Program-made: the position numbers and the translations under genes
From: Planctomycetota bacterium
Lineage (GTDB): Bacteria > Planctomycetota > PLA2
DNA: 39,145 bases
Direction: 5' to 3'
NCBI GenBank assembly: GCA_027297745.1
Contig: JAPUHK010000052.1
Location: forward strand, 1-39,145
The notes under the pieces: generated by a model
The model's input: the letters and a program-made list of their open reading frames with translations, nothing else
Database searches by the model: none
Told to the model about the DNA's origin: nothing
Part shown: positions 5,552 through 32,641 of the stretch, piece after piece
Layout of the letters: every line of letters starts with the position of its first letter
How positions within the stretch are numbered: position 1 is the stretch's first letter

Positions 5552-6538
5552 TCATTCGGCGCTGCCCGAGAGCGCGGGCGCGTCGCGCTTGGGCGTGGGT
5601 CCGGTCAGCCACACGAAGTCGGCGTAGCGGCGGGCGAAGTCCGCCGCGGGCGGCGGATCCTTGTCGACGCCGATCGGGATCACGATCGAGTACGGCTTGC
5701 CGTTGCGGCGGAAGGCGCGGCCCGGGATGCCATAGCGGTTGGCCAGGTGGCCGTGGCCCGCCAGCACGACGATCTGCCCGCGCTGGGGGGCGGTCCGGAA
5801 CCAACGCACGACGCTGTCCGCCATGACGTCGTCCCACAGGCACATGACGAGGTAAAAGCGCTCGAACGCCGCAGCCTTCTGCTTCTCAGTCATGGGGGTC
5901 TTGGGCTTGTCACCTTTGGGGGTCGGGTGTCCCTCGCCGTAGACCGACTTCAAATAGGCGCGGTGCTGCGCGTCGTCGGTGTAGAGCGCCGGCAAGGTCC
6001 TGCGCACGTCCTCCGGCACGGCATCGAGGCCCCCCTTGCTGACCAGCTTGCGGGTCTCCTGCTCGACATTGAGCGCGATCACGGGAATCCGCTTGTCGCG
6101 TGCGAACTTCAGGATCGGACGGTACAGCGCGAAGTCGTGTCCCCAGCGCTTCTTCCACTCGCAGCGCTCCAGCAACTCCTGCTCGCCGATGCGGCCCTCG
6201 ACCCAGTCGTCGAGCACCGGCTGGAACCGGCGCTGGAACATCTCCATGCCGATCCCGTGCAGGTTTTTCTTCTCGAAGAGCGCCTCGAGGATGCGCAGCT
6301 GGATCTCGTGGTGCTCCGGATTGGTGTGCGACTCGCCGAGGTAGACCACCTGCGCCTTCGCGAGATCTTCGAGCATGTCGTCGAAGCCGGTCTCACGCGA
6401 CGTGCGGTAGATGTCCCCCGTTACGGGCTGGGGCTGCAGCGGCGGCGGCGCCTCGCGGGCCGGGGCTTGCCGCTCCTCTTCTTTGGCGGGAGAAGAGCAG
6501 GCGGCCAGCAGCAGCAACCCCAGAAACGAACGCGGCAT
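5552..6538 (-). CDS. ChaN-like (haem-binding uptake / Tiki superfamily) lipoprotein
   Basis: Lipobox MPRSFLGLLLLAACSS; VVYLGESHTNPEHHEIQLRILEAL...GIGMEMFQRRFQPVLDDWVEGRI...WGHDFALYRPILKFARDKRIPVIALN is typical of the ChaN domain. Confidence 0.85.
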   Translation of the reverse strand: MPRSFLGLLLLAACSSPAKEEERQAPAREAPPPLQPQPVTGDIYRTSRETGFDDMLEDLAKAQVVYLGESHTNPEHHEIQLRILEALFEKKNLHGIGMEMFQRRFQPVLDDWVEGRIGEQELLERCEWKKRWGHDFALYRPILKFARDKRIPVIALNVEQETRKLVSKGGLDAVPEDVRRTLPALYTDDAQHRAYLKSVYGEGHPTPKGDKPKTPMTEKQKAAAFERFYLVMCLWDDVMADSVVRWFRTAPQRGQIVVLAGHGHLANRYGIPGRAFRRNGKPYSIVIPIGVDKDPPPAADFARRYADFVWLTGPTPKRDAPALSGSAE

Positions 6539-6642
6539 GGCGGCGTATTCTATCCGCGGCCCACAAATCCTTCCGCAAAGCTGCACGCTCGCGTGCAGGT
6601 GCACGCCGCGGCGGGAACCCGGGGCAGGGTTAGAATCCCGGC

Positions 6643-7626
6643 ATGACGCGACGCGCGACCCTCGCCGCCCTGCTCCTGCTCAGCGCCGGAGTCTCGTCTG
6701 TGGCCGAAGAGCAAGAGGACGTCAGCGCCTTCAAGCTGCGCACGCACGCGAAAGAGGTGAAGGCGGCCATCGACACGAAGGAGGTCCTCGAGGGCACCAG
6801 CGAGCGCGAGCCGAAAGACGCGATCCTCGCCATCTGGGACGCGCAGTCCATTCCTGCCAAGCAGGCCACCGGGCTCGCGCCCGAAGACGAGGTCTTGGGG
6901 GTCGTCGTAGGCAAGCAGGCGCGCGCCTATCCGATGAAGATCCTCGACCGCCACGAGATGGTGAACGACGTGCTGGGCGGGCGGCCGATCGCCCCGAACT
7001 ACTGACCCCTCTGCAACTCGGCGGTCAGTTTCGACCGCCGCGTCGACGGCAGGACCCTCACGCTGGGCGTTTCCGGCTACCTGTACCGCAGCGCGGTCCT
7101 GTACTACGACCGCGAGACCGAGACGTTCTGGTCGCAGATGACGGGGGCCGCGGTCGTGGGCCCGCAGACCGGCAAGCAGCTCAAGTGGATCGACTCGGAG
7201 GTCACCACCTGGGGGGATTGGTTGCGGAGGTATCCGCAGACGACGGTCTTGAAGCCTCCGTGGGGTTGGAGCAAGTACCAGCGCAACATGTACGCGGGCT
7301 ACCGCCGCTCGTCGCGCACCTGGTTTCCCCTCGGCAACGCCACGAAGCACTATCTGTTCAAGAAGTATCCCAAGAAGTCGCTGGTGACGATCGTCAAGCG
7401 CAACGGCAAGGCCTACTGCTACCCGCACGAAGCCTTCGACGGCACGATCGAGGACCGGGGCTTGAAGCTCACGCGCCGGGACAAGCGCGTCGAGGTGAAG
7501 GACGCGCAGGGCAAGTCCGTGCCGGCCATGCAGGCCTATTGGTTCGCCTGGTGCGCGTTCTACCCGGATGGCGTCGTCTACGACCCGACCCGCAAGGGTC
7601 CTTCCGCCCCGCCTTCCGGCGGCTAG
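6643..7626 (+). CDS. DUF3179-family exported protein with in-frame TGA at 7003-7005 (candidate selenoprotein, UPLC motif)
   Basis: 6643-7005 and 7138-7626 are the same frame. Reading through the TGA gives ...NDVLGGRPIAPNY[TGA]PLCNSAVSFDRRVDGRTLTLGVSGYLYRSAVLYYDRETETFWSQMTGAAVVGP..., colinear with DUF3179 where the family has YCPLC. Confidence 0.75.
7019..7040 (+). promoter_or_regulatory. Candidate bacterial SECIS hairpin
   Basis: CGGCGGTC-AGTTTC-GACCGCCG: perfect 8-bp stem, 6-nt loop with G at loop position 2, 22 nt between the TGA and that G. Confidence 0.55.
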
Positions 7627-10797: not shown

Positions 10798-12891
10798 TTG
10801 CGAAGGCAACAAACTGTTGCCGCGGTGGTGGTATGGGTTTTTGCCTCCGTCGCGGCCACGGCGAGAGAGCCGGTCCGTAATGACCGGCCGCTGCGTCGTG
10901 CAGTCCTGGCTCTGCACGATAGCCAGGGTGAGAGGCGGGAGCTCGACATCGAGGATCCCGCCCATCAGCTATTGGAGTTGCCGCTGAACCACCTCGGCAT
11001 GGTGGTCCGGCGCCATGACATCCGCAAGGGACCACCCCCGGACGACACTCTGACCGGCCTGCGCGCGGTCGTGACCTACTTCCACGACACCGGCGCCTCC
11101 GCTCCCGAGTGGCTCTGGCCCTGGCTCGAAAAGACGCGCCAGGAGCACGCGATCCGCGTGATCCACTTCGGCCACCTCGGTCCCCTGCTGCGCCCGCAAG
11201 CGAATCGATACGACCCGGCCCGAGTCACGCGCTGGCTCCAGGGTTTCGGCCTGCAGTACGACGACCTGTTCCTGCCCGGTCCCATGGGCATCAAAGTCGA
11301 GTACCGCGAGCGCACGCTGTGTGCGTACGAGGCCGACGCCTACGTGCGCGCCAGCCACCACGGCCCGCGCAACGTCGACCCCCACAACCGCGTCTGGGTC
11401 ACCACGCGGCCCACCAAGAACCCCGAGGACGCACGCACGCCTGTCGTGACCGGGGCCTGGGGCGCCATTGCGCTCGATCCCTGGACGATCACCGCCGGCG
11501 GCGACAGCGGCAACCGGCGCTGGCACCTCGACCCGCTGATTTTCTTCCGCGAAGCGCTCGGCCTCGAGCGCGTCCCGGCTCCGCAGCCGGGGGTCCTGAA
11601 CGGACGGCGCATGCTCTTCGTGCAAGTCGGCGGCAGCGGCTTCGAGAGCGTCTCGACGGCGCAGCGCAACACTCTGAACGCGCAGGTCTTCCTGGACCAG
11701 ATCATCGAGGAATACGAGCTTCCCTTCACGGTCGGCGTGATCGTCGCCTCGCTGACCGACGACTACACGGTCGCCGAACCGACGCCCCGCATGCTGTTGG
11801 CGCAGCGCATCCTCAACCATGCGCGCGTCGAAGCGGCCAGCCACACCGTGCTGCAGCCCCTGCGTTGGAACGTCCCCTTGCTGCCGGACAGCCCTCCGCG
11901 CTCGGTGGTCTGGTACCCCCCCATCCGGAACTACGAATACAGCGCCGTCGCCGAAGTGCGCGAGTCGTTGCGCTTCATCAACGAGCGCCTGCTGCTCAAG
12001 GGCAAGCGCTGCCGGCTCATGTTGTGGTCGGGCCTGGCGGTCCCGCCGCTCGAGGCCGTTGAAGAGAGCGCGCGGCTCGCCGTCGGCAACCTGAACGGCG
12101 GCATCTACCGCTGGGACGCGTCCGCCGACTCGATCGGCTACGTATCCCCCTGGGCGCGCCGCGTCGGCGACCGCATCCAGGTCTACGCCGGCGCCCCCAA
12201 CGAGAACGTCTACGACGGCTTCTTCGACACGATGCCGCAGGCCTACCGCCACGTCGGCACGACGCTGGAGCGCACCGGCCGCCACGGCATCCTCAAGCCC
12301 GTCCACATCAACGTGCACTTTTACAGCGCCGAGAACACGGCCCGTCTGACCACGCTCAAGAAGGTGATCCGGCGCTGGGCTTTCGAGGAGCAGACGGCAC
12401 CGGTGTTCGCTTCAACCTACGTGAGAGCCGTACGCGACGCGTTGCTGCGGGCGCACATCGTGCGCAAGCCGCACGGCTGGGCTTTCCGCTTCTTCGGCGC
12501 CTGCCGCACCGTGCGCATCGACGGCGAGACGCGCTCCGTCGACTGGGCGCGCAGCCGCGGCCTGCTGGGACAGCGCCGCATGCACGGCGCCCTGTATCTG
12601 CACCTGGCGGCACCCGACGCCGAGGTGGTGCTGGCGAACGATCCCCCACCACACCCGCACGTCGAGCAGGCCAACCACATCCTCGAGGGGGCCGTGCTCG
12701 AGCCGGACCGCATCGCGGTCACTTCCAGCGCGCTCACGCCGCGCCGCATAGTCTTCGCGGGCTTCGCGCCACGCAGCAGCGCGATCCTGTCGCTGGATGG
12801 GGAGACGCGAGCCGTCCAGGCCGACGGGCATGGGCGCATCGAGCTGCAGCTTCCATCGGGTGAGAATCGCGTGGAGGTCCGGCTGCCGTGA
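10798..12891 (+). CDS. PelA-like deacetylase paralogue, copy 2, predicted catalytically inactive
   Basis: Colinear with copy 1 over its whole length (VLALHDS...ELPLNHLGMVVRRHDIRKGPPP). Motif 1 is QVGGSGF (GGSG at 11629-11640), motif 2 is SHTVLQP (11842-11856). TTG start; the start codon is uncertain. Confidence 0.8.
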   Translation: MRRQQTVAAVVVWVFASVAATAREPVRNDRPLRRAVLALHDSQGERRELDIEDPAHQLLELPLNHLGMVVRRHDIRKGPPPDDTLTGLRAVVTYFHDTGASAPEWLWPWLEKTRQEHAIRVIHFGHLGPLLRPQANRYDPARVTRWLQGFGLQYDDLFLPGPMGIKVEYRERTLCAYEADAYVRASHHGPRNVDPHNRVWVTTRPTKNPEDARTPVVTGAWGAIALDPWTITAGGDSGNRRWHLDPLIFFREALGLERVPAPQPGVLNGRRMLFVQVGGSGFESVSTAQRNTLNAQVFLDQIIEEYELPFTVGVIVASLTDDYTVAEPTPRMLLAQRILNHARVEAASHTVLQPLRWNVPLLPDSPPRSVVWYPPIRNYEYSAVAEVRESLRFINERLLLKGKRCRLMLWSGLAVPPLEAVEESARLAVGNLNGGIYRWDASADSIGYVSPWARRVGDRIQVYAGAPNENVYDGFFDTMPQAYRHVGTTLERTGRHGILKPVHINVHFYSAENTARLTTLKKVIRRWAFEEQTAPVFASTYVRAVRDALLRAHIVRKPHGWAFRFFGACRTVRIDGETRSVDWARSRGLLGQRRMHGALYLHLAAPDAEVVLANDPPPHPHVEQANHILEGAVLEPDRIAVTSSALTPRRIVFAGFAPRSSAILSLDGETRAVQADGHGRIELQLPSGENRVEVRLP

Positions 12892-15800
12892 ACTTCACGC
12901 GCACGGGCTTCCTGCTCTTCATCGCCGCCGGCGTGCTCGCCATCGCGTTGCTCGCGAGCCTGGAGCCGCGCCGCACGCGCGACGCCGGCGTCGACCGCCA
13001 CACCGGGAAGCAGGTGTGGCTGACGCCGCGCACCGCCTCCCAGCTGCTGGGCGCGGCGCGGCGCACGGGAGCCGCCCCCGCGGCGCGGGACAAGATCCTC
13101 GAGTTCATCGACGGCGTGCCGGATCCGTACGCGGCGCGCATCAAGCTGGCGGTCTTCGAAGCCGAGCTGCAGGAACGCACCGCGCCCGAGCTGCATCCCT
13201 TCCGCGACGAGATCGTAGCCGACATCGTGCGCGCCGAAGCCGCCGAACGGGAGCTGGACCGCACGCTCACCGAGATGCGCGACATGCACAAGCTGGTGCA
13301 CCTGCTGCAGGAGCTCGAGGCCGACAACGCCGTCGGCGCCGCCACCGACGCCTTCTTCAGTGGCGGCAAGCCGCCCGAGTCGTTCGCCAACAAACAACTC
13401 GAGCAGCGCGTGCGCACCTGGGCGCCAGCGGACGCGAACGCGGCTTACACGCTGCACGGCTTCCGCATCGGCAGCCTCGAGCCCGAGGTCGACGTCTACC
13501 GCCTCGTCGCCCACGGTTACCGTGCGGCGGACCGCACGCGGGGGCGCATGCGCTGGCTGTTGCGCGGCCTGGTCAAGTTCCCCAACGACGCGAATCTGCA
13601 TCGCGAGCTGAAGCAGGCCTACCTCGAGCACGGCCGGCAACGCGAGGTCTTCGCCGTCGTCGGCGCCGAGCTGCACCGCTTCCGCGACGAGCTCGAGACC
13701 TGGATGGAGCGAGAGCAGCTGGCGCGTTGGATGGGCCTGCACGACCAGCGCATCCACGCCGTGGGACGCCTCGCCGAGCTCACGGGGGACCCGAAATGGG
13801 CGGCCGAGCTGGTCGAGATCTACAGCTACCGGGGCCGCCCGGAGAAGGCGCTGCCGTACGCCGTCCAGCTGGCGGAGAACGAGCAGACGGCGGAGGCCTT
13901 CGAGCGCCCGGTCGAGCTCGCGCTGGCCTCGATGCAGGTCGACGAGGCCTTCCGCTTGCTGGAGCGCGCCGCCGGGCTGAGCGACAACCCCCGCGAGTGG
14001 CGCGAGCGCATCGTGGAGTACGCGCTCCAGGACCTGCGCTACGACCGGGCGCTGCACGAGCTGGAAAACCTGCACGAGACCTATCCCGACGCGGGCTACG
14101 AAGTGCAGCTCGAAGGCTTGTACCGCAGGCGCGACATGCGCGCGGAGTTGGCGGACCTGCTCGAGGAGCGTTGGCGCCGAGAGTCCGACGACGACGAGCT
14201 GTTCATGGAGATCGTCGGCTTGCACACCTCGCTCGGACGCGAAGACCGGGTGCACGACCTGATGCGGCAGCGCCTCGCCGACGAGGAGGACCTCGACGGG
14301 CTGCTGTTCAAGATTCCCGTGTACCAGGCGGCGGGCATCGACGGCGCCGAGCGCCTGCGCGAGCTGGCCGCCGAACAGCAACTGACGCCCGAGCAGGTCC
14401 AGAGCGTGCTGGACAGCCTGACCGCGCTCTTGGATACGAGCGAGACGTTGCGCGCAGCCGCGCTCGTGCTGGCGCGGCGCTACCGGGAACACCCTGCGGC
14501 GCGCCCCATGCGCCTCGAGCTGATCGAGCGCATGCCGACACCGGAGGCGCGGGCGGGAGGCGCGCGGCAGCTGGCCGCGGAAGAGCCCGGAGACCCGGAT
14601 GCCGTGCGCGTGTGGGTCGAGCGCAGCGCGTGGGCCGGGCTCTTGAAGGATGAGATCGAAGCGCGCCGGGCCTTCGTGCTGCTGCGGCCCCAGGACCTCG
14701 AGAATCGCCGCAGCCTCGCCGACCTGCTCGAAGCGGACGGGCGCAGCGGCGAGGCGGGCGAGCACTGGGCGGTGCTGGCCGAGGCGGAGGGCCCCACGTC
14801 GGATGCGGCGCTGCGGCTGGTCGGGTCACTGTTCACCGCGGGCAAGCTCGCGGAGGCCATCGCATGGCTCGAGCAACGCGCGAACGACCCCGACGCCACC
14901 AACGAAGACCGCAGCCGCATCGCGGAGGAGCTGTTCGGCATCCAGCAGCACGACCGCGCGGCCCCTTTCTACCGCGCCATCCTGGGGCGCGAGCCGGACC
15001 ACGTGCTCGCACTGCTGCGGCTCGGCCAGATCCGTTCCTGGGGTAGCGACCCGCGCGGCGCGATCCCGTACCTCGAACGTCGCTTGAAGGTGACGGACGA
15101 GGACGCGGGCATGGTGCGCTACTTGCTCGGCGAAGCCTACTGGTCGATCCAGGACCGCGAGCAGGCGCTGCGCATCCACGAGGCCGCGCTGCCCGATCTA
15201 CTGCTCGCGACTCGGACCCCGGACACCGAGACGATGATCGCCAAGATCCTCGTACGGCTCGGGCGCGTCGAAGAGGCCGAGCCCATCTACGACGAGGTGA
15301 TCGCGAACGAGCCGCGGAACGTCCACCTGATCCTGGACTACGCCGACGCCATGGTGGCGGCGGGACGGCTCGAAAAGGCCCGCGCGATTCTCGAACGCGC
15401 GCGAGCGATCGAGCCCAAGCACGCGCGGCTGCTGCGTCTCGACGCGGAGATCCTGGTCAAGGAGAAGCGTTACGGGGAGTCCGCCGAGGTGTACCGCCAG
15501 GCGCTTCGCCTCTACGGCTCGGATGCCGGCCTCGAGGCCGGGCTCGGCTACGCGCTGGAGCTCGGCGGGTCGTGGGGGGACGCGGTCGGCGCCTACGGCC
15601 GCTCGCTGGTGTTGCAGCCCGGCAACCTCGACGTGGAGCGCTCCCTGGCGGATCTCTTCGAGCACGTCGGCAACCGCGTCAGCGTGGGCGCGCGCTGGAG
15701 CTTCATCGGCGAGGACTACGCGATCGAGATCCCGGCCGAGATCTCGTTCGCCTTCCGCGACTCGCGCGACCGCTTGACCCTCGGCGCGGGCGCGGGATTC

Positions 15801-16574
15801 TTCTCGGGGCGCGCGGCGGTCGTAGCGAACGGAACGGTACCGGTCGAAGACCGGATCGTCTCGCTGCGCGCGTCCTTCGCGAGCCGCTTCAACCTGCGCA
15901 ACGAGTGGGCCGTGGGCCTGGAAGGCTACCCCGGAGCGGCGGGCGACTTCCCGCTCGGCGGCTGGGGCTCGCTGCTGCTGCAGGGCTTGGAGCCGAGCCG
16001 CACGCTCGGCGTGCGAGTGGGCGTACACGAGCTGTTGCGCGCTCCGACCGCGTCCGTGGGCTTGGGCGGGCGCCGCACGGGCATCTCCGTGGAGGGGTCG
16101 CGCGACTTGGGACGGCGCTGGTTCGCCGGCGCGGGCGCCACGCTGGAATCGCTCTCGCTGGACCCGACCGGGCGCGACAGCGTCACCGACGGACGCTTCC
16201 TGGCCAACCTCAGCGCGGGGTACCGGATGAGCACGGCCGAGCCCCGCGTCGACCTGTACTTCAACTACAACCCGGTGCGCCTGCTCGGGAACCAGGAGCT
16301 GGCCGCCCTGATCCCGATCGGCGAGCGGTTCGACTACCTCACCGCAGGCGTGCGGCTGTCCTCCGGGCGGCCCAGGCTGCGTTGGCTGGTTTCTGTGTAC
16401 GCCGGTGTGGACGCACACAGCGACGACAACATCTGGGGCGTCGTCGGCGACCTGGTCTACCGGCCCGGGGCGCGCTTCGAGCTGCGCTTCGGAGGTGAGG
16501 CCGGCAGCGCATTCGGACGGAGCTCAACGGAGATCGGCGCCACGCTGCGGTTCGCAGCGGTGTGGCGCTGGTAG
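12888..16574 (+). CDS. pelB: PelB-like: N-terminal TM, long TPR region, C-terminal outer-membrane beta-barrel
   Basis: 1228 aa; N-terminal TM FTRTGFLLFIAAGVLAIALLASLEP; TPR repeats; C-terminal GARWSFIGEDYAIEIPAEISFAFRDSRDRLTLGAGAGFF...; start GTG overlaps the copy 2 stop (GTGA); position in the operon. Confidence 0.85.
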   Translation: MNFTRTGFLLFIAAGVLAIALLASLEPRRTRDAGVDRHTGKQVWLTPRTASQLLGAARRTGAAPAARDKILEFIDGVPDPYAARIKLAVFEAELQERTAPELHPFRDEIVADIVRAEAAERELDRTLTEMRDMHKLVHLLQELEADNAVGAATDAFFSGGKPPESFANKQLEQRVRTWAPADANAAYTLHGFRIGSLEPEVDVYRLVAHGYRAADRTRGRMRWLLRGLVKFPNDANLHRELKQAYLEHGRQREVFAVVGAELHRFRDELETWMEREQLARWMGLHDQRIHAVGRLAELTGDPKWAAELVEIYSYRGRPEKALPYAVQLAENEQTAEAFERPVELALASMQVDEAFRLLERAAGLSDNPREWRERIVEYALQDLRYDRALHELENLHETYPDAGYEVQLEGLYRRRDMRAELADLLEERWRRESDDDELFMEIVGLHTSLGREDRVHDLMRQRLADEEDLDGLLFKIPVYQAAGIDGAERLRELAAEQQLTPEQVQSVLDSLTALLDTSETLRAAALVLARRYREHPAARPMRLELIERMPTPEARAGGARQLAAEEPGDPDAVRVWVERSAWAGLLKDEIEARRAFVLLRPQDLENRRSLADLLEADGRSGEAGEHWAVLAEAEGPTSDAALRLVGSLFTAGKLAEAIAWLEQRANDPDATNEDRSRIAEELFGIQQHDRAAPFYRAILGREPDHVLALLRLGQIRSWGSDPRGAIPYLERRLKVTDEDAGMVRYLLGEAYWSIQDREQALRIHEAALPDLLLATRTPDTETMIAKILVRLGRVEEAEPIYDEVIANEPRNVHLILDYADAMVAAGRLEKARAILERARAIEPKHARLLRLDAEILVKEKRYGESAEVYRQALRLYGSDAGLEAGLGYALELGGSWGDAVGAYGRSLVLQPGNLDVERSLADLFEHVGNRVSVGARWSFIGEDYAIEIPAEISFAFRDSRDRLTLGAGAGFFSGRAAVVANGTVPVEDRIVSLRASFASRFNLRNEWAVGLEGYPGAAGDFPLGGWGSLLLQGLEPSRTLGVRVGVHELLRAPTASVGLGGRRTGISVEGSRDLGRRWFAGAGATLESLSLDPTGRDSVTDGRFLANLSAGYRMSTAEPRVDLYFNYNPVRLLGNQELAALIPIGERFDYLTAGVRLSSGRPRLRWLVSVYAGVDAHSDDNIWGVVGDLVYRPGARFELRFGGEAGSAFGRSSTEIGATLRFAAVWRW

Positions 16575-16582
16575 CGGGAGCG

Positions 16583-19500
16583 ATGACGAAGAAGAAACGT
16601 CAACGCAAACCCGCACGCAAGGCGGCCAAGCAAGAGGCCGTGCGCAAGAAGGTCACGCGTAAGAAGACCGCACGCAAGGCCGCCAAGCAAAAGGCCGTGC
16701 GCAAGACGTCCAAGCGCGCAACGACCAAGAAGAAGAAAGTCGTCTGCAAGAAGAAGACGCGCAAGGTCCTGCGGCGCAAACCGGCCGCCCAGACCGCCCC
16801 CAGCGACGATCCCGATGCGCTGAGTCCCTTCGAGGACGCGCTCCACGAAGGTGAGATCCCGACGCGCACGGATCTCCTGATCGATCCCAAGGACCTCGAA
16901 GCCGCCCAGCTCGAGGCCTCTGTACGTAACGACGAGACCGGGTCCGCCCGGCAAGACACACAAACTGAAGCGGCGCCGCAAACGGCTTGTCCTGACTCTA
17001 AAAAAACCCCCATCCAAAGGGATGAGTCACGCGGCGCCGCTCTTTCTTCCTCTGATCCTAGCCAGGAGGCCGACGCGCAGATACCCGAGACTCGCGATCT
17101 CACGGACGACGACCCGACGCAGACGGAGTGCTTCGACGGAGCCGAGGTGCCGGAAGCGGAAGAGAAGATCGAAGTGCTGAAGCCGGAGCTCAAGCTCGGG
17201 CCCGAAGAGTCCGGACTCTTCGAAGATGATCTGCCGACGCAGACGGAGATCTTCGATGACGCCGACGCGCTCAAGGCAGTGCAGGCGCTCGGTGAGCCCG
17301 CGCAGCCCAAACCCGAGGACGCCGGCGAGATCGACCTCGGCGAAACGCTCGTGGACGACCCGGGCGTCAAGCCTGAGGCAGTCACCCCGGGCGAGAACGA
17401 GCACGTGTCCGAGAGCGCGGGCGAGATCGATCTGGGCCAGACGCTCGTGAATGACCCGGGAATCACGCCGGAGCCGGTGCCCGAGCCGGACGAGCCCGAG
17501 CCGGAGGTCGAGCGCGTGCAGCCCACCACGCAAGCCACGGAGGCGGGCGACGAGGCGGAGGATGAACACCTCACCGAGACGCCCACGCGCACGGAGATCT
17601 TCGACGACCCGCTCGCGTTCGAGGCGGCCGTGACCGACGAGCCCGCCGCGCCCACGCTCGAGGCGGCCGGCACGGGCGGCAGCGGCGGCGGCGATGACGA
17701 CGACACCGGTGACGCGCCGCCGCCGGAGCCCGAACCCGAGAACGAGCCTGAAGAGGACCAAGACGCGCAGACCCCCGCGGACGAGCCGGCGACCGAAACG
17801 CCGACACGTACGGAGATCTTCGACGACCCGCTCGCGTTCGAGGCGGCCGCGACCGACGAGCCCGCCGAGCCCACGCTCGAGGCGGCCGGCGCGGGCGGCA
17901 GCGGCGGCGGCGATGACGACGACGCCGGTGACGCGCTGCCGCTGGAGCCCGAGGACGAGCACGAGCCCGCGCACGGCGACGTGCTGAGCGATATCGAGTT
18001 CTCGATCCACGACATGCAGACGCGGACGGATGCGGAGGCTCACGATTCCGGCGAGCGGGCCGCCGAGGACGCGCATGCTTACGACTTCGAGCCCGCCGAG
18101 ACGTTGCCGGACCTGCCGCAACCCGATGCGGACGAAGAGCTCCCGACGGAGTCGCTCGCGACCGTGACCTACGACCCGAGCTCGCTCCGGCCGGGGATCG
18201 CGGGCGACGCCGACACGGCTACGAGCGCCGATACGGCCGAGCCCACGGAGGGACCGTTCAAGCTCACGCGCAGCAACGAGCTGGACACGGAGCACACCGG
18301 ACCGCCTCCCGAGCCGGTCACCGCGACCGAGCTCTTCCGGGGCGACGTGGATCCGGCCACGATACGCATTCCGACCGAGGAGCCGGTCGAAACGCGCGAC
18401 CTGCACGACGCGTCCACGGTGTCCGGCGTACCGATCGAAGAGGCGGAGACCGAAGACCCCGACGCGACGCGCACGGAAGCGGCGGACCGCCACTCGATCG
18501 TGACCATCGATTCGCGGTCACTGGGTACGGTGTCGATCCACGACGCCGAGACGGCGGACCTCGAGGACATGGGGACCGTCACGCAGCAGGCGCGGGAGGC
18601 CGACGGGGCGGCGGCCGAGACCGACGTCTTCAGCGAAGGCTTCAGCACGGAGGCCTCGCTGGCGCGTTCGCACCACATCCTCGAGCACGTCCCGCCCCAG
18701 TTGGACTTCCTGCCTCCGGAGGCCGTGTCGTCACCGCAGCCCAAGGACAAGGACAGCATCGAGCGCGGCGAGACGCGCCTGCAGCGCTGGAAGCGCCGTG
18801 CCCGCAAGCCGTCCCGCTGGACGCCGCTCCTGCGGCCGCTGCAAGCAGGCTGGGACAAGCTGCGCGAAAAGGCGTCCGAAGGCTGGCAGAAGCTGCGCAA
18901 GGTCCCGTGGGACCAGCCCGTGCGCTGGTGGAAGGCGCAGCCGCGGGCGCAGCGGCGGGAGGAGACGTACTGGTGGCGCCGCACGCTGCGCGACGTGGGC
19001 ATCGCTTACGGCATCCTGCTGCCCTTCGAGCTGATCTTCAACGGCGGCAAGGTCGGGGCGTTCGGTGTGCACCCGCATCCCTACTGGCTGATCATCTTGC
19101 CGATGGCTGCGGCCCGCGGCGCGGGCGCGGCTCTGGTGGCGGCCGCGGTCGGCACGTTCCTGCACACGCTCGGCGCCATCGGGCGCCTGCACACGACCGA
19201 GGTACAGACGCTGCTCGACTACACGGTCATGCTGGAGCCGCTCCTGTTCTTCGGCGTCGGTTTCCTTGTGGGCGACTTCCGCGACGTGGCCGAAGCGCGC
19301 TATCGCGAGATCAAACGCAAGCGCCACAAGGCGGACGAAAAGGTGGACCGCTTGTACAAGGAGCGCGAGGTGCTGGCCGAGGCCAACCGCCTGCTCGAGA
19401 AGCGCCTCGTGGACCAGACCACGCAGTTCGGCAACCTGGTCGTAGCCGCGCAGCGCATGGAGAGCTCGGACCGAACGGAGGTCTTCGAGTTGGCGCTCGA

Positions 19501-21526
19501 CCTGGTCGACGAGCACTGCGGCGCGAACGCGTCGGTGATGCTCGTGCTCGACAGCGGGTCCGTGGACTTCCTGTGCTACCGCGGCTGGACGGAGGGCGAG
19601 GTTGGTACGCGCCTGTCCGACGCGCGCGACAGTGCGTTCGTGCAGCGGGCGCTGGACGACGGCACGCAGGTGAACGGCTTCCTGCCCGGCGAGTCGCCGC
19701 CCGAGAAGGGACCGATCGCCGTGGCGCCGCTGTTCGACGGGGAAGGCGTCGTGCGGGCGCTGCTCTGTCTGGACGACGTGCCGCCCTTCCGCCTCAACAG
19801 CAGCACGTTGAGCATCTTCTTCGGCATCGCGGAGTGGATCTCGGCGGCTATGGCGCGCCTGGACCGCCGCTCCGAGACGCCGGATCCGCGCAAGGCCTTC
19901 ACGGCCGCGCCGGAGGGCGACGCATGGATCGGCGACCGCAACGACCTGGGCGAGCGCCTGCGCATCGAGTACGAGCGCCTGGCCCGCTACGGCGTGCCGA
20001 CCAGCCTGCTGCTGATCCACGCCAGCGAGTACACGGACACGACCGCCGAGGGCCGCAAGAAACTCGACCGCTACATGGTCTGCCACTTCACCGGCAGCCT
20101 GCGAGCGTCCGACAATCTGTACAGATTCGGGTACCCGGGCTGCTACGTCCTGGTGCTGGCGGGAACGAATTCGGAGGGTGCCGAGGTGGTTCGAAAGCGT
20201 CTGTTGCGCCGTGTGCGCTACCGGCCGTCGCCCGTGGTCGGCGCGGTCGAGGTGGAGGTCACCGCCCCCGACGCGGAGGCGCCGGACCTGGTCAGCCTCG
20301 CCAGCCGCGTGGCCGCGACGTTCCGCGAGCGCAGCCCGCTCAAGCTGGACAGCGAGTGCCCGGTGCGGGTCCCGGCGCAAACGAAGCTCGGCAGCCTCGA
20401 CGATTTCATGCGCCGCCTGAAGATCGAGACCAGCCTCGCACTGCGCAACGGCCTCGACCTGCACGTCCTCGGCTTCTTCGGCAAGGAGACGCAGGGCGAT
20501 CCGGACCTGTTCGCGCGCCACCTGCACGAGGTGGCCTCGGACCTCTTGCGCCAGACGGATGCCGTGTTCCGCGTCACGCCCAGCCGTTGCGCGGTGGTGC
20601 TGCCGGCAACGGACGCCGAGCAGTCGGAGACGCTCGGCCGCCGCATCCTCGAGGCGCTCGCGGCGCGCGATCCCGACGCGGCCTACGGCACGCCCCGCGT
20701 GCGCCTGTTGGGTCTGGGGCCGTCGCATCCGGATCCGCGCGCCTTCCTGTTCGAGTTCGAGGACGAGGACGAGGACAAGGGTGACTCGCCCGGCGCGGTG
20801 GCTGAACTGCAGCCCGCGGTGCTGCGCGAGCCCGAGCCGCCCGCGACGCTGAAGGCCGAGGCGCCCTTGCCGGTCGTGCAGGAGGCGGAGCCGCGCGGGG
20901 ACGAGCCGGACACCGGCACGGTGACTCCGACCGAGCCGCGGGCTCACGGACCGGCGGACGTCCCGGGAACGGGGACCGAGGTCGATCCGGGTGCCGTGCA
21001 GCCGGAGCTCGAGAACGAGAAGGAGCAAGAGGGCGGGGACGGAACGGGGACGGCGACCAAGCTCGATGCGCAGACCGTCGAGCCCGATCCGCTGGACGTG
21101 ACGGGAACGGCGACGGAGTGCGACCCGCAGGCGCTTCAGGCGGAGTTCGAGCGGGAAGCCGACTCCGAGACGGAGCCCACGACACAACCCGCGGCTGATG
21201 AGGAGGAGAAGGAAGAGGACGGGGACGACTTCCCGACCAAGACCGAGATCTTCAATGAGTCCGACGCCTTCGGCAGGCACGGCTCGGACGCACGCCGCGC
21301 GGTTCCGCTGCCCGATCCGGAGCCCGAGCCCGAAGCGGACCACGACGAGGAAGACACCGACTCGGGAACCGTGGACGAGAGTAGCGACGAGACCGGGACC
21401 GGCGAGGACACGGACGTGGACGCGCCGATCCCCGAGCCGCCCACGCTGCGCGACGCGGCCGCCGGCGACGATGAAGCCACGGACACCGGAACGGTCGGCG
21501 AGTTCGACCAGGAGGACGAGTCTTGA
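16583..21526 (+). CDS. pelD: PelD-like c-di-GMP receptor with 4-TM region, GAF and tandem degenerate GGDEF-like domains; very large basic/acidic low-complexity extensions
   Basis: TM block LRDVGIAYGILLPFELIFNGGK...LLFFGVGFLVGDFRD; coiled coil; GAF-like region; RASDNLYRFGYPGCYVLVL (20102-20158) and RQTDAVFRVTPSRCAVVLP (20549-20605); sits between pelB and pelE. ATG 16583 preferred over GTG 16562. Confidence 0.85.
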   Translation: MTKKKRQRKPARKAAKQEAVRKKVTRKKTARKAAKQKAVRKTSKRATTKKKKVVCKKKTRKVLRRKPAAQTAPSDDPDALSPFEDALHEGEIPTRTDLLIDPKDLEAAQLEASVRNDETGSARQDTQTEAAPQTACPDSKKTPIQRDESRGAALSSSDPSQEADAQIPETRDLTDDDPTQTECFDGAEVPEAEEKIEVLKPELKLGPEESGLFEDDLPTQTEIFDDADALKAVQALGEPAQPKPEDAGEIDLGETLVDDPGVKPEAVTPGENEHVSESAGEIDLGQTLVNDPGITPEPVPEPDEPEPEVERVQPTTQATEAGDEAEDEHLTETPTRTEIFDDPLAFEAAVTDEPAAPTLEAAGTGGSGGGDDDDTGDAPPPEPEPENEPEEDQDAQTPADEPATETPTRTEIFDDPLAFEAAATDEPAEPTLEAAGAGGSGGGDDDDAGDALPLEPEDEHEPAHGDVLSDIEFSIHDMQTRTDAEAHDSGERAAEDAHAYDFEPAETLPDLPQPDADEELPTESLATVTYDPSSLRPGIAGDADTATSADTAEPTEGPFKLTRSNELDTEHTGPPPEPVTATELFRGDVDPATIRIPTEEPVETRDLHDASTVSGVPIEEAETEDPDATRTEAADRHSIVTIDSRSLGTVSIHDAETADLEDMGTVTQQAREADGAAAETDVFSEGFSTEASLARSHHILEHVPPQLDFLPPEAVSSPQPKDKDSIERGETRLQRWKRRARKPSRWTPLLRPLQAGWDKLREKASEGWQKLRKVPWDQPVRWWKAQPRAQRREETYWWRRTLRDVGIAYGILLPFELIFNGGKVGAFGVHPHPYWLIILPMAAARGAGAALVAAAVGTFLHTLGAIGRLHTTEVQTLLDYTVMLEPLLFFGVGFLVGDFRDVAEARYREIKRKRHKADEKVDRLYKEREVLAEANRLLEKRLVDQTTQFGNLVVAAQRMESSDRTEVFELALDLVDEHCGANASVMLVLDSGSVDFLCYRGWTEGEVGTRLSDARDSAFVQRALDDGTQVNGFLPGESPPEKGPIAVAPLFDGEGVVRALLCLDDVPPFRLNSSTLSIFFGIAEWISAAMARLDRRSETPDPRKAFTAAPEGDAWIGDRNDLGERLRIEYERLARYGVPTSLLLIHASEYTDTTAEGRKKLDRYMVCHFTGSLRASDNLYRFGYPGCYVLVLAGTNSEGAEVVRKRLLRRVRYRPSPVVGAVEVEVTAPDAEAPDLVSLASRVAATFRERSPLKLDSECPVRVPAQTKLGSLDDFMRRLKIETSLALRNGLDLHVLGFFGKETQGDPDLFARHLHEVASDLLRQTDAVFRVTPSRCAVVLPATDAEQSETLGRRILEALAARDPDAAYGTPRVRLLGLGPSHPDPRAFLFEFEDEDEDKGDSPGAVAELQPAVLREPEPPATLKAEAPLPVVQEAEPRGDEPDTGTVTPTEPRAHGPADVPGTGTEVDPGAVQPELENEKEQEGGDGTGTATKLDAQTVEPDPLDVTGTATECDPQALQAEFEREADSETEPTTQPAADEEEKEEDGDDFPTKTEIFNESDAFGRHGSDARRAVPLPDPEPEPEADHDEEDTDSGTVDESSDETGTGEDTDVDAPIPEPPTLRDAAAGDDEATDTGTVGEFDQEDES
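17572..17943 (+). repeat. 219-bp (73-codon) near-identical tandem repeat inside pelD
   Basis: ETPTRTEIFDDPLAFEAA.TDEPA.PTLEAAG.GGSGGGDDDD.GDA occurs twice; CGGAGATCTTCGACGACCCGCTCGCGTTCGAGGCGGCCG at 17592 and 17811. Confidence 0.9.
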
Positions 21527-22545
21527 GCAAGCTCCGCCCCGGAACCCTCGTGGGAGCGCTCGCCGCCTTGTGCGGCACCGCGGGCGTGTGGCTGATCGTG
21601 CGCAGCGAGCTGAACGGCGCGTTGCCGGTGGGCCTGTGCGCGCACGGCGCAGCTGCGTGGCTCGCGCTGTGGGCCGCCAGAAGGCGGCGGCCGGACCTGT
21701 CGCAGACCGAACGCGACACGGTGCTGCTGACAGCGCTGTTCGTGCCGCTGTTCGGACCGGCCATGGCGCCCTATCTGCCCGCGCCCGACAAGGAGCAGGA
21801 CGAGGAGGCCGCGAAGGAGATCTTCGACCGCTACAAGGAGTACATCAAGCCGCAGGTACCGGACTACGAGCGCTCCTTGTTCACGGGCGACATCGACAAA
21901 GACCTGGCGCGCGAGCTGGACGTGGAGAGCTACACGGAGGTCTTGAGCCACGGCAGCACGGACCAGAAGCGCAACGCGCTGAAGGCGCTCGCGGACCTGG
22001 GCGAGCCGAAGCACCTGGCGCTGGTGCGCGCCTGCATCAAAGACCCGGAGCACGAGGTGCGGCTGTACGCCTACGGCGAGCTGAGCCGCGTCAGCCGGCC
22101 TCACGAAGAGCGCATCGACAAGCAGATGCGCAAGCTGCAGGAAAACGCCGACGACGTGGACGCCTCCGCGGCCGCGGCCGACGCGCACTTCTGCTTCGCG
22201 TTCAGCGGCATCCTGGACCCGGGCATGGCCGCGTTCCACTACAAGGAGGCCAGCAAGGCCGCCGCACATGCGGCCGCGCTGGGCGCGCCGCAGCCGGGAC
22301 CGGCGATCCTCGCGGCACGCTCCTGGTGCGGGCTGCGCGACCTGGACCAGGCGCTGGCCGCGCTGGGGGCGCTCGAGCCCGTGCACCGGGGGGCCGACGC
22401 GGTGCGCGTGGTACGCGCGGAGATCGCCTACCTGCAGCGCGACTTCGACGCCGCGCGCGCGGAGGCGCACGCGCTACGCGACGCGGGCGCGGACGTGCCC
22501 GAGTGGCTGCAGGCCCTCGTGGAAACAGCGGAGGCAGGCGCATGA
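21523..22545 (+). CDS. pelE: PelE-like: two N-terminal TM segments plus helical/TPR-like cytoplasmic domain
   Basis: TTG start overlapping the pelD stop (TTGA); two hydrophobic segments then a helical repeat region; located between pelD and pelF. Confidence 0.7.
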   Translation: MSKLRPGTLVGALAALCGTAGVWLIVRSELNGALPVGLCAHGAAAWLALWAARRRRPDLSQTERDTVLLTALFVPLFGPAMAPYLPAPDKEQDEEAAKEIFDRYKEYIKPQVPDYERSLFTGDIDKDLARELDVESYTEVLSHGSTDQKRNALKALADLGEPKHLALVRACIKDPEHEVRLYAYGELSRVSRPHEERIDKQMRKLQENADDVDASAAAADAHFCFAFSGILDPGMAAFHYKEASKAAAHAAALGAPQPGPAILAARSWCGLRDLDQALAALGALEPVHRGADAVRVVRAEIAYLQRDFDAARAEAHALRDAGADVPEWLQALVETAEAGA

Positions 22546-24059
22546 AGAAACCGAGCGACATCTGCCTCGTGCTCGAAGGCACCTACCCCTTCGTCTCGGG
22601 AGGCGTGTCGTCGTGGGTGCACCACCTCGTGACGCACCTGCCCCACCTGACCTTCTCGGTGCTGCACATAAGCCCGACGCACAACTTCTACAACAAGGGC
22701 GCCTTGTACGACATGCCCAACAACGTCGTGTCGCTTGACGAGGTGCACCTGCACGAGTACGCCATCGAGGGCAAGGCCGACCCCGAGGTGTTGCGCGCCA
22801 AGGTGCAAAAGTTCCGCGGCATGGTGGTCGACATGCAGGAGGGCGGATCGAGCGCCTTCGAGGCCTTCGTGCACGCCGTCGAGGAGGGCCACTCGGGCGC
22901 TCTGAGTGGCTACCACTTCCTGCAGACGCTGGAGGGCTGGAAGGTCCTGATCGACACGTACCGGCGCGAGGCCGAGGAGGAGAGCTTCCTGAACTTCTTC
23001 TGGACCTGGCGCTTCGCCTTCCTGCCGCTGTTCAACGTGATCGCCGCCAAGATCCCGCTCGCGCACGCCTACCACACGATCTCGACGGGCTACGCCGGGC
23101 TGCTGGCGGCGGCAGCAAAGGTGCGCACCGGAAAGCCGATGCTGCTCACCGAGCACGGCATCTATGCGAAGGAGCGGCGCATCGAGGTGAACCGCGCCGA
23201 CTGGATCGAGGACTGGGACTCCGGCGAGATCGTCGCCCAGCGCACCGTGCCGTACTTCAAGCGCTACTGGATCCGCCAGTTCCAGATGATGAGCACGGTC
23301 ACCTACAACTTCGCCAACTCGATCTACACGCTGTACGAGGGCAATCGCAAGGAGCAGATCAAGGACGGCGCCGACCCGAACATCGTCGAAGTGGTGCCGA
23401 ACGGGATCGACATCGACCGCTTCGACGAGGCCGCGAAATGCTTCGCCGCGCGCCCGCCCAACAAGCGCTTCACGATCGGCTTCGTCGGGCGCGTCTGCCC
23501 CATCAAGGACGTGCGCACGCTGCTCGCGGCGACGCGCATCGTGGTGGAGGAGGTGCCCGACGTGCGCCTGCGCATCCTGGGTCCGATGGAGGAGGACCCG
23601 GAGTACGCGGGCGAGTGCCAGCGTTACGCCGTCGGCATGGGCATCGGCGACAACGTGGCCTTCGAAGGGCGCGTGAACGTGCTCGAGGAGTTGCCGACGT
23701 TGGATGTGCTCGTGCTGTCGAGCATCTCCGAGGCGCAGCCGCTGGTCGTGCTGGAAGGCAACGCCGTCGGGCTGCCGCTGGTGGCTACCGACGTGGGCTC
23801 CTGCGCCGAGCTCTTGTTCGGCCGCACGGCTGAAGACCGCGCGCTGGGTCCGGGCGGCCTGCTCACGTCCATGGCAAGCCCGGGCGAGACCGCGCAGGCC
23901 ATCCTGCGCCTGTACCGCGACCCCGCGCTGCGCAAGCGGCTGGGGGAGTCGGGGCGCCAGCGCGTCCGCGCACACTACGACCAGCGCGACATGACCGCCG
24001 CCTATGACGCGATCTACCAAAAGCACATCGCGCTCTCCAAAGAGGAGGTGAAAGCCTAG
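22542..24059 (+). CDS. pelF: PelF: GT4-family glycosyltransferase of Pel polysaccharide synthesis
   Basis: MKKPSDICLVLEGTYPFVSGGVSSWVHHLVTHLPHLTFSVLHISP; VVPNGIDIDRF; IGFVGRVCPIKDVRTLL; ATG overlaps the pelE stop (ATGA). Confidence 0.95.
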   Translation: MKKPSDICLVLEGTYPFVSGGVSSWVHHLVTHLPHLTFSVLHISPTHNFYNKGALYDMPNNVVSLDEVHLHEYAIEGKADPEVLRAKVQKFRGMVVDMQEGGSSAFEAFVHAVEEGHSGALSGYHFLQTLEGWKVLIDTYRREAEEESFLNFFWTWRFAFLPLFNVIAAKIPLAHAYHTISTGYAGLLAAAAKVRTGKPMLLTEHGIYAKERRIEVNRADWIEDWDSGEIVAQRTVPYFKRYWIRQFQMMSTVTYNFANSIYTLYEGNRKEQIKDGADPNIVEVVPNGIDIDRFDEAAKCFAARPPNKRFTIGFVGRVCPIKDVRTLLAATRIVVEEVPDVRLRILGPMEEDPEYAGECQRYAVGMGIGDNVAFEGRVNVLEELPTLDVLVLSSISEAQPLVVLEGNAVGLPLVATDVGSCAELLFGRTAEDRALGPGGLLTSMASPGETAQAILRLYRDPALRKRLGESGRQRVRAHYDQRDMTAAYDAIYQKHIALSKEEVKA

Positions 24060-24061
24060 CC

Positions 24062-26713
24062 ATGGCCGGCATCGGGTTCGAGCTGCGCAAGCTGGTCGAG
24101 GACAGGGACGACTTGTTCTCGCGCATCCGCGCGTACGTCTCCGCGGGGTTGATCTCCTCGGGCCCGTGGATCATGGCCATCCTGACGCTGTCCCTGTTCA
24201 GCCTCGGCGGCGAGCGGCTGAGCGGCAAGGAAGGGTACGAGCTGTTCCGCGCTCTCGTGACCTACGCCTTCGCCTTCAGCCTGATCGTCGTCGGCATCGG
24301 CCAGATGGCCATCACGCGCCAGGTCGCGGACCTGCTGTATTCGCACCAGCACGACCGGGTGCTGCCGGCCTTCCTCACGTGTTTCGCGCTGACGGGCGTC
24401 GTGCAGGCCACAATCGGGACGCTGTTCTGCGTGCTCGCCGGCTTCGGAGCAGGCCTCAGCTTCGTTGCCGTGTCGCTGTATGTGATCATCAGCCTGAGCT
24501 GGCTGGCGCTCGTCTGGCTGAGCATCATCCGCGAGTACGGCGAGGTACTGCGTGCCTACACGTACGGCCTGGCGGCCGCGCTGATCGTGTTCCTGATGGC
24601 GGCGCAGCTCGAAGGGGCGGTCGGCCTGCTCGGCGCGTATGCGGCCGGACAAGGCCTGACGCTCGTGCTGCTCCTGCGCGCCATCCTGCGCGGTATGGAC
24701 AGTAGCGGCGCGCGCGACCTCTCGATCGTGCCCAGCATGCGCGGCTTCCCGAAGCTGGTCGCCGTCGGGCTGTTCTACAACGCGGCCATGTGGGCGGACA
24801 AGATCGTCTTCTGGTTCGCGGACGGGACCGGACCGCACCCGATGGTTCGCTTCCATCCCCTCTACGACACGAGCACGTTCCTGGCCTACCTGACCGTGAT
24901 CCCGGCCCTGGCCCTCAACCTGGTGCGGCTCGAGACCGACTTCTACGAGCGCTACCGCGGCTACTACGGCGCCATCCTGGGCGGCATGCCGCTCAAGATC
25001 ATCGAGGAGCGGCGTGAGCGCATGTTCGACTCGATGCGCTACGGCGCCGTACGTCTCTTGCGCGTGCAGGGCGCGCTGACGGCGCTGCTGATCCTGTTCG
25101 CGCCCTACGTGATCACGACGCTCGAGCTGCCGGACGCCGCCGTGCGCATCTTCCGGCTGGCGTGTCTGGGGGCCTTCTTCCACGTGCTGCTGCTGATCAC
25201 GATCCTGATGCAGCTGTACTTCGACCTGCGCAAGGAGGCCATGTGGTCCTCGCTCCTGTTCCTGGTGCTCAACGCCGGCCTGGCGGGCTGGAGCGTGAAC
25301 ATGGGCGTGCACAGCTACGGCCTCGGCTATGCCGTGGCGACCTTCATCAGCCTGCTCTTCGGCTACAGCCTGCTGGGCAGCGGGCTCACGAACCTGGAGT
25401 ACCTGACGTTCACGAACCAGCCCGTGACGGACACGCGCGGCGACAAGAAGCGGGGCTGGGCGCTGTTCGGGAAGAAGAAGGCCACGCCGGAGCAGGTGGA
25501 GAAGACCGAGGAAGAGAAACAGGACGAGCTGCACGAACCCGTCGATCCCGAAGCCGCGGGGATGCACGTGGAAGCGGTGTCCCCCATCGAGCCCGTCGCC
25601 AAGCCCTCACCCGAGCCCGAGCACGAGCCGTTGGTTGACCCGGAGGCCCCCGCCAGCGAGATCACCGCGCTCACTGAGGACATCGCCGAGACGCTGCGCC
25701 ACGAACAGCTGTTGCGCGAGTCGTCGACGCGGCACGAGGACGAGAGCGGAGAGGTCGATCTCGGCGCCACTCCCACGCGCACGGAGCTGTTCGACGAGTC
25801 CGGCGCCTTCCACATCATCGCCGTCGGCGAGCCCGAATCCGGGCACGAGGACGAGAACAAAGAGGTCGATCTCAGCGCCACTCCCACGCGCACGGAGATG
25901 TTCGACGAGTCCGACGCCTTCCACATCACCGCCGTCGGCGAGCCCGAATCCGGGCACGAGGACGAGCAGGAGGAGGGCGAGGTCGATCTAGGCGCGACTC
26001 CCACGCAGACGGAGGTTTTCGGCGACCCGGCCGCGTTCGACGCCTCGGCCGAGGAGACGCCGCCTGCACTCGAACCGGAACCCGAACCCGAGACCGCCAC
26101 CGTCGATGCAACTGCGTTGCCGACCGACACCGAGCTGCTCGAGGATTCGGAGGAGCTCGAGCTCACGGACGAGGCAGCGCCGGAACCGCCGCCCGATCCG
26201 CAGCCGCAGCACGACGACCCCGTTACGGACACGCCGACGCACACCGAGGCCTTCGACGACCCCGGCGCCTTCGAGCGCGTCGTCTCGGAGCCGGAGCCCG
26301 AGGCTCCCCCGGAGACCTCAACCGACTCGGAGTCGGTGTCGGTCCCCGAGGAGCTGCCCGAGCTGGACGAAGACGATTTCGACCTGCACGACGTCGGCAC
26401 GCTGACCGGTGATCCGCTGGTCGACCGCATCGTCTTCGACCTCCCCCTGCACGAGGAGCAGACCGCGGACGATCCCGCGGCCCCCGGCCTGCTGGACGTC
26501 CCGGACATGGCGTCGGGGCCGGAAGGCGGCCGCGTTATCATCGACGTGCCTCCGCGCTCCGACGACCTGCACGACGCCGACACGGCGGAGTTCGACGAGG
26601 ATCCGGCGCAAGCGCGAGTGACGCTCGACTTGGACGACGAGAAGCCCGCGACGGACGACGACACGGGCGGGGAGCGCGACGACGGAGACATCCCCACCGA
26701 CACGGAAGGATAG
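24062..26713 (+). CDS. pelG: PelG: polytopic Wzx-like membrane transporter with a C-terminal acidic repeat extension of about 420 aa
   Basis: MAGIGFELRKLVEDRDDLFSRIRAYVSAGLISSGPWIMAILTLSLFSLGG is the PelG N-terminus; many TM segments to about 25420, then acidic repeats to the stop. Confidence 0.92.
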   Translation: MAGIGFELRKLVEDRDDLFSRIRAYVSAGLISSGPWIMAILTLSLFSLGGERLSGKEGYELFRALVTYAFAFSLIVVGIGQMAITRQVADLLYSHQHDRVLPAFLTCFALTGVVQATIGTLFCVLAGFGAGLSFVAVSLYVIISLSWLALVWLSIIREYGEVLRAYTYGLAAALIVFLMAAQLEGAVGLLGAYAAGQGLTLVLLLRAILRGMDSSGARDLSIVPSMRGFPKLVAVGLFYNAAMWADKIVFWFADGTGPHPMVRFHPLYDTSTFLAYLTVIPALALNLVRLETDFYERYRGYYGAILGGMPLKIIEERRERMFDSMRYGAVRLLRVQGALTALLILFAPYVITTLELPDAAVRIFRLACLGAFFHVLLLITILMQLYFDLRKEAMWSSLLFLVLNAGLAGWSVNMGVHSYGLGYAVATFISLLFGYSLLGSGLTNLEYLTFTNQPVTDTRGDKKRGWALFGKKKATPEQVEKTEEEKQDELHEPVDPEAAGMHVEAVSPIEPVAKPSPEPEHEPLVDPEAPASEITALTEDIAETLRHEQLLRESSTRHEDESGEVDLGATPTRTELFDESGAFHIIAVGEPESGHEDENKEVDLSATPTRTEMFDESDAFHITAVGEPESGHEDEQEEGEVDLGATPTQTEVFGDPAAFDASAEETPPALEPEPEPETATVDATALPTDTELLEDSEELELTDEAAPEPPPDPQPQHDDPVTDTPTHTEAFDDPGAFERVVSEPEPEAPPETSTDSESVSVPEELPELDEDDFDLHDVGTLTGDPLVDRIVFDLPLHEEQTADDPAAPGLLDVPDMASGPEGGRVIIDVPPRSDDLHDADTAEFDEDPAQARVTLDLDDEKPATDDDTGGERDDGDIPTDTEG
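25751..26040 (+). repeat. Three tandem acidic repeats (111-bp and 117-bp offsets) inside the pelG extension
   Basis: EVDLGATPTRTELFDESGAFHIIAVGEPESGHEDE / EVDLSATPTRTEMFDESDAFHITAVGEPESGHEDE / EVDLGATPTQTEVFGDPAAF; TCCCACG at 25771, 25882, 25999. Confidence 0.9.
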
Positions 26714-31630: not shown

Positions 31631-32641
31631 TCAACCTTCGTCGGCGAAGAGGTGCGCCGGCAAGCGGTCGAGGGGCGTGCGGCTCACGAAAGGCACGAAG
31701 CCACGCATGGCGCTGTCGAGCAACGCCGCGCGGACGTTGGCGGGCGTCTGCGCGTAGTCCAACGTGAAGACCGGGATCTTGCGCCGCCGGAACTCGCGCA
31801 GCGCCAGAAGCAGCGCCTCCCGGTCCTCGACCGCGTCGCGGTCGCCGCTCCCGGGGTCGTCCCAGTCCGCGTTCGCCTCCCCGCCGAAGCTCAGCGACTC
31901 CTGGCTGACGCCGTCGATCCAGCTGTAGACGTCGGGCACACGCGCGGGCAACAGCGCCCCGTTCTGCGCCACGATCACGAAGTACGGGTTACGGGCCCGC
32001 GCGTACTTGCGCAGGTCGCGAATCAGCTCCGCCATCGCGCGCGCGGGGTCGATACCGGCCTCGGCGGCGGCCGCCGCGACGAGCGGGTCCTCGTATCCGA
32101 GCACCCAGTCCAGGTAGACGCCGTCGAAGCCGTCGCTGATGATCTGGTCCAACAGCGCGTTCGAGCTGCCGAACAGGATCCGCTCCCAGCGCGTGTCCCA
32201 GTAGGCGATCGGAAAGTTGCCTTCCCAGCCATCGGGATCGCGGCGTAGCAGGAAGCTCGGCTCGCCGCGCCGGGTGTCCGTGGGAGCGCGCCAGCCTGCG
32301 GCCCAATACGTGCGGTAGTCCTCGGCCTGGCCGATGTTGAGGTACGCGAGGCAGATCTTGCGCTCGAGCGCCGCGCCCGGGCTGGAGCGGATGCGGCTGA
32401 CGACCGTGCGGGTCGGGAAGACCCCGGCGCCGCGGATGCTGCGCACGGGATCCAGCACGATCAGGTCGGTGCGCGCCCGTTCGATGCGCGTCAACGCCCC
32501 CGGACGCTCCAGGCCCTGGAGCTGGCAGGCCCAGGATGTGACGTTGCGCAGCTGCGCCACACGGAACGAGTCGTGGGGCTGCGGCTCGGAAACGCACCCG
32601 GCCCAGAGACAAGCTGCAAACGTCAAGCTGCACAGGCGCAT
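31631..32641 (-). CDS. GH114 / TM1410-like lipoprotein glycoside hydrolase (endo-alpha-1,4-polygalactosaminidase-type)
   Basis: MRLCSLTFAACLWAGCVSE lipobox; ICLAYLNIGQAEDYRTYW...WRAPTDT; DGFDGVYLDWVLGYED; YARARNPYFVIVAQNGA; PVFTLDYA. Confidence 0.85.
   Translation of the reverse strand: MRLCSLTFAACLWAGCVSEPQPHDSFRVAQLRNVTSWACQLQGLERPGALTRIERARTDLIVLDPVRSIRGAGVFPTRTVVSRIRSSPGAALERKICLAYLNIGQAEDYRTYWAAGWRAPTDTRRGEPSFLLRRDPDGWEGNFPIAYWDTRWERILFGSSNALLDQIISDGFDGVYLDWVLGYEDPLVAAAAAEAGIDPARAMAELIRDLRKYARARNPYFVIVAQNGALLPARVPDVYSWIDGVSQESLSFGGEANADWDDPGSGDRDAVEDREALLLALREFRRRKIPVFTLDYAQTPANVRAALLDSAMRGFVPFVSRTPLDRLPAHLFADEG

Follow-up and report, generated by a model that had tools for sequence, protein, structure and literature searches.

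A planctomycete DUF3179 gene with an in-frame UGA, very probably decoded as selenocysteine, in an already catalogued selenoprotein family

The window considered here is the whole stretch of DNA that was analysed, 39,145 nucleotides long (contig C261), from a Planctomycetota MAG of 3.69 Mb that is about 94% complete and whose nearest relatives with named records are also Planctomycetota MAGs. On the plus strand of the window, a single reading frame runs from an ATG at 6643 to a TAG at 7624-7626, and its sole in-frame interruption is a TGA at 7003-7005. The ORF track presents this gene as two ORFs (6643-7005 and 7138-7626). An earlier note on this DNA had read them as one DUF3179 gene with the TGA as its only lesion, a reading borne out by the single frame and by the PF11376 match that continues through the TGA. 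The read-through product is one DUF3179 protein (Pfam PF11376, 223.5 bits, E=4.9e-66, residues 58-264), far above the curated cut-off of 27 bits, and a profile search of the whole genome returned one DUF3179 match crossing this TGA (197.5 bits, 1 TGA inside). The surrounding motif is NY-U-PLC. As the same note had proposed, the TGA takes the place of the first Cys in the CPLC motif of the family, and Cys occupies this position in the closest non-Sec homologues. The features of the gene are collected in Table 1.

Table 1. Features of the DUF3179 gene, in window positions
Feature	Position	Strand	Basis
Predicted selenoprotein gene, entire	6643..7626	+	327 residues with UGA as Sec; PF11376 match through the TGA
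Probable N-terminal signal peptide MTRRATLAALLLLSAGVSSVAE	6643..6708	+	By eye from the translation
First DUF3179 repeat, Sec-bearing, predicted Rieske-like beta fold	6868..7260	+	Model pLDDT 92.6
Predicted UGA selenocysteine codon, residue 121	7003..7005	+	29 other genes have TGA in this column, Cys homologues have Cys
U-P-L-C motif (UxxC)	7003..7014	+	Translation and homologue alignment
Predicted bacterial SECIS hairpin	7019..7040	+	8-bp stem, loop AGUUUC at 7027-7032; fold, conservation, published constraints
Second DUF3179 repeat, shortened, without the Cys pair	7315..7578	+	Repeat relation from homologues with a full second copy; placed by alignment

Both neighbours of the gene in the window (ChaN-like and DinB) lie on the opposite strand, the gene upstream of DUF3179 in the two nearest relatives encodes an S9-type peptidase, and no conserved operon around the DUF3179 gene was found in the window and these two relatives. 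The ChaN-like haem-binding protein (PF04187) is encoded at 5552-6604 on the minus strand, and its N-terminus, taken from an internal Met, reads as a lipoprotein signal, MPRSFLGLLLLAACSS. Elsewhere in the window, a plus-strand ORF of carboxypeptidase-regulatory-like repeats (PF13620, at least 8 stretches) occupies 51-2915 and starts near the contig edge. Adjacent genes for a DUF3492/glycosyltransferase (PelF-like) and PelG are found at 21198-26713, with ORFs carrying TPR and GAF-like matches ahead of them (12888-21526) and a GH114 glycoside hydrolase at 31631-32641. Together, the genes between 12888 and 32641 look like a Pel-type exopolysaccharide locus.

Downstream of the TGA, positions 7019-7026 pair with 7033-7040 in all 8 of 8 positions, and the loop carries a G at its second position, just as the earlier note had described this hairpin. 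Its distance of 22 nt from the TGA to the loop also holds when counted to the first loop base, with 21 nt lying between. Folding of the region, which the same note had put forward as a check, gave an RNAfold energy of -25.1 kcal/mol for 7003-7060 (z=-3.2 versus dinucleotide shuffles, with 1 of 200 as good), and the stem covaries in homologues. Published constraints for bacterial SECIS elements comprise a loop of 3-9 nt, a stem of 4-16 bp, a G in the first two loop positions, a spacing of 16-37 nt, and an MFE of -7.5 kcal/mol or lower (PMC13188914). With a stem of 8 bp, a loop of 6 nt, a spacing of 21 nt, and an MFE of -25.1 kcal/mol, the hairpin falls within all of these. When the synonymous codons of the gene were randomised, a stem of at least 8 bp arose in 6.6% of cases (p about 0.07). 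The window hairpin by itself is moderately unusual by this measure and would not convince alone; therefore, the strength of the case for it comes from its conservation across homologues rather than from the single hairpin.

This conservation takes the form of two hairpin registers among the TGA genes, which differ in loop length (6 nt in the window type and 5 nt in the other). The signal was blurred when the TGA genes were all pooled in a single register and was resolved by the split into two. In the 6-nt-loop register, 86.5% of cells were paired, with 9 double changes, and in the 5-nt-loop register, 93.3% were paired, with 17 double changes. For both, the pairing and covariation score exceeded that of 500/500 shuffles, and registers shifted by 1-3 columns scored much worse. 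A stem of at least 6 bp in either register was present in 24 of the 30 TGA genes versus 0 of 24 homologues in which this position is Cys or some other amino acid; the computed p value of 5e-10 is not to be taken literally because the TGA genes themselves served to choose the registers and the sequences are related. At least two (L031 and L058) of the six TGA genes without a stem in these registers have one of at least 7 bp elsewhere in the stretch. Within one genus, a close pair of genes shows the shorter stem with Cys (L034, 3 bp) and the longer one with Sec (L040, 6 bp).

The TGA itself is widespread. In a search of 59 genomes of the phylum, counting that of the window, 30 had DUF3179 and 21 had a copy with exactly one internal TGA, which in every case falls in the same alignment column. 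The first homologue alignment was too diverse for scanning a genome, and a closer alignment took its place. Within the window's class, DUF3179 is present in 17/17 genomes and its TGA form in 15/17, several of them having more than one copy. Two Chloroflexota members also carry a TGA at this column, with SelA in both genomes. Of 54 sequences compared, 30 have Sec in the column, 17 have Cys, and the remaining 7 have His, Asn, Asp, Ser, or Arg; the TGA is common to 30 genes from Planctomycetota and Chloroflexota. TGA/Cys homologue pairs, which the earlier note had suggested as a check, do occur in related genomes. A tree of the 54 sequences computed without the Sec/Cys column requires 9 state changes in all, and Sec and Cys therefore appear to have interchanged several times in DUF3179, in a direction that is not readable from this unrooted tree with its many weakly supported inner branches. 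The two nearest relatives of the window protein (60% identical, from separate MAGs) both have the TGA. At the amino-acid level, they share 52-56 of 97 codons with it upstream of the TGA and 118-120 of 189 downstream, so that identity to these two does not fall beyond the TGA. No relative turned up when viral contigs were searched.

Two departures from the common motif were seen in this set. The seven members in which His, Asn, Asp, Ser, or Arg replaces Sec/Cys (L041, L046, L047, L035, L049, L051, and L085) keep much of the fold motif, and the DUF3179 domain may have a role that does not need a thiol. In three TGA genes (L028, L029, and L050), the second motif Cys is replaced (UPLA, UPVA, and UPLL, respectively), so that Sec would stand there without its CxxC partner.

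All four components of the selenocysteine machinery that the earlier note had named as a check on the host genome were found in it. The tRNA-Sec, with anticodon UCA, scored 67.2 bits (gathering score 47), and selA (510 bits), selB (319 bits), and selD (362 bits) adjoin one another on contig C106. SelA is present in most of the phylum, and its co-occurrence with the TGA form therefore discriminates weakly; no selA was seen in two of the TGA genomes, of which one is only 77% complete. The selD gene (G000:C106:4762-5688, minus strand; L064 2664-3698) likewise contains an in-frame TGA, located in the catalytic GG-U-xxK motif, where the sequence reads MTVRLTQFSSAGG-U-AAKLGK, and this TGA is followed by an 8-bp hairpin whose loop starts with G. 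SelD is a second selenoprotein gene of this genome, of an already known type.

The computed support thus comprises the reading frame, the family, the TGA/Cys column, the machinery, and the conserved hairpin, and on these sequence data we regard it as very highly probable that 6643-7626 is an intact selenoprotein gene in which the TGA is read as selenocysteine. The central claim of the earlier note, a selenoprotein with UGA at the CPLC Cys, is one on which the machinery, the Cys column, the TGA of the relatives, and the covarying hairpin agree. A pseudogene or a sequencing error, with a Cys codon mutated to or misread as TGA, would account for the split in the ORF track and would need a single base change from TGC or TGT. 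However, independent MAGs and many paralogues have the TGA at the same column, always alone, the sequence past it is as conserved as the sequence before, and both Sec machinery and a covarying hairpin are present. Error or decay would not give the same TGA, mostly with a covarying hairpin, in 30 genes, and the view of the earlier note that random decay is unlikely can be kept on the strength of that recurrence, the conservation past the TGA, and the hairpin; we consider this explanation very improbable.

More improbable still is a reassignment by which TGA would encode an ordinary amino acid in this lineage (codes 4 and 25 being examples), or unspecific read-through of TGA. In the few conserved window genes checked, TGA serves as the stop less often than TAG (2/8), which speaks for reassignment, but two domain-bearing neighbours (ChaN-like and GH114) stop at TGA, which also contradicts the earlier note's proviso that TGA might have another meaning in this genetic code. 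In addition, the TGA column aligns with Cys and with neither Trp nor Gly, and the UCA-anticodon tRNA that was found is tRNA-Sec. The stops of the neighbours and the alignment with Cys effectively rule out a reassigned TGA.

With the TGA read as selenocysteine, SelB carrying Sec-tRNA (anticodon UCA) would be recruited by the hairpin during translation, and selenocysteine would be inserted at the UGA, so that the first of the two tandem domains would carry a UxxC motif. The product, judging by its N-terminus as read by eye, is probably exported and would act outside the cytoplasm. The Sec selenol would react with a substrate there, possibly forming a selenylsulfide with the Cys three positions downstream. 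In selenoproteins generally, UxxC motifs are associated with redox roles, and we consider it somewhat likely that the DUF3179 selenoprotein is a thiol/selenol redox protein.

DUF3179 is a tandem duplication, in which the profiles of the first and second repeats match each other with 99.7% probability in hhalign (E=4.3e-27, in homologues with a full second copy), and the UxxC/CxxC motif is kept only in the first repeat. The AlphaFold model is confident, with a pLDDT of 88 for the mature protein and 92.6 for the first repeat. Sequence searches at E up to 1 gave no homologue of solved structure, and a Foldseek search with the whole model gave no match below E=0.001. The first repeat alone matched Rieske-family structures in 32 of its 34 top Foldseek matches (best probability 1.00, TM by target 0.57, best E-value 0.012), including Rieske ferredoxins, NirD-type subunits, the arsenite oxidase small subunit, and oxygenase Rieske domains. 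In hhalign comparisons with Rieske domains from related genomes, nothing rose above reversed controls, PF00355 is absent from the Pfam matches of the window protein even at E up to 10, and the CxH...CxxH cluster ligands are absent from the protein and its alignments.

Two readings of these matches can be compared. DUF3179 may be a duplicated Rieske-like fold without iron-sulfur ligands, with a Sec/Cys redox centre in its first copy, a tentative proposal that draws on the structural model. Because the best E-value is 0.012, the hhalign comparison was null, and the CxH/CxxH ligands are missing, we offer such a cluster-less Rieske-like barrel as a plausible hypothesis and not as a finding; this fold context for selenocysteine was not found reported in the literature searched. 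Alternatively, the same selenoprotein could have a different chemistry, in which the Rieske-type first repeat uses Sec/Cys and a nearby His or Cys to bind a metal or iron-sulfur centre. The predominance of Rieske-family structures among the top matches would fit this as well, as would an upstream His-Glu pair that, together with the CxxC, is nearly invariant among Cys/Sec members. Against a metal centre stand the same three points (the E-value, the Rieske profile comparison, and the absent ligand set), and in addition the members whose Sec position is taken by His, Asn, Asp, Ser, or Arg and the Sec members without a second Cys. We consider the metal centre unlikely, and the cluster-less fold with a Sec/Cys redox centre more probable than that, though less likely than not.

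The earlier note did not recall DUF3179 as an established selenoprotein family, and on this point it has to be corrected. DUF3179 (PF11376, UxxC/T) is listed among prokaryotic selenoprotein families (PMC9312934; PMC13188914), the listing being credited to Zhang and Gladyshev 2007 and the deltaproteobacterial symbiont of Olavius algarvensis (PMC9312934), and selenoproteins are known in Planctomycetes (PMC4807772). One plasmid record is also annotated "DUF3179 domain-containing (seleno)protein". The two catalogues and this record rule out a new selenoprotein family; the window gene is a newly found member of a known one, and the novelty is therefore much lower than first thought. It shares with the catalogued proteins the Pfam family, the UxxC motif, and Sec at the Cys position, but comes from Planctomycetota, often with paralogues, whereas their credited source is a deltaproteobacterial symbiont. 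The Cys forms of Chloroflexota, haloarchaea, and some Planctomycetota have the same domain and CPLC motif, but a Cys codon instead of TGA, and a SECIS stem at this position in 0/24 non-Sec members tested. Rieske ferredoxins, NirD, and the arsenite oxidase small subunit may resemble the first repeat, and in predicted fold only, DUF3179 lacking both the CxH/CxxH ligands and detectable sequence similarity to them.

What the analysis adds is that a gene split in the ORF track is very probably one selenoprotein gene, and that Sec-DUF3179 is frequent in the window's planctomycete class, beyond the source credited in the catalogues. Its useful yield also includes Sec/Cys pairs, such as L040 and L034 in one genus, and a structural lead on a family without an assigned function. 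As a separate observation, a partial Rieske match with one in-frame TGA lies at a contig edge of the window genome (G000:C52:3-149) and could be an edge artefact or another Sec candidate.
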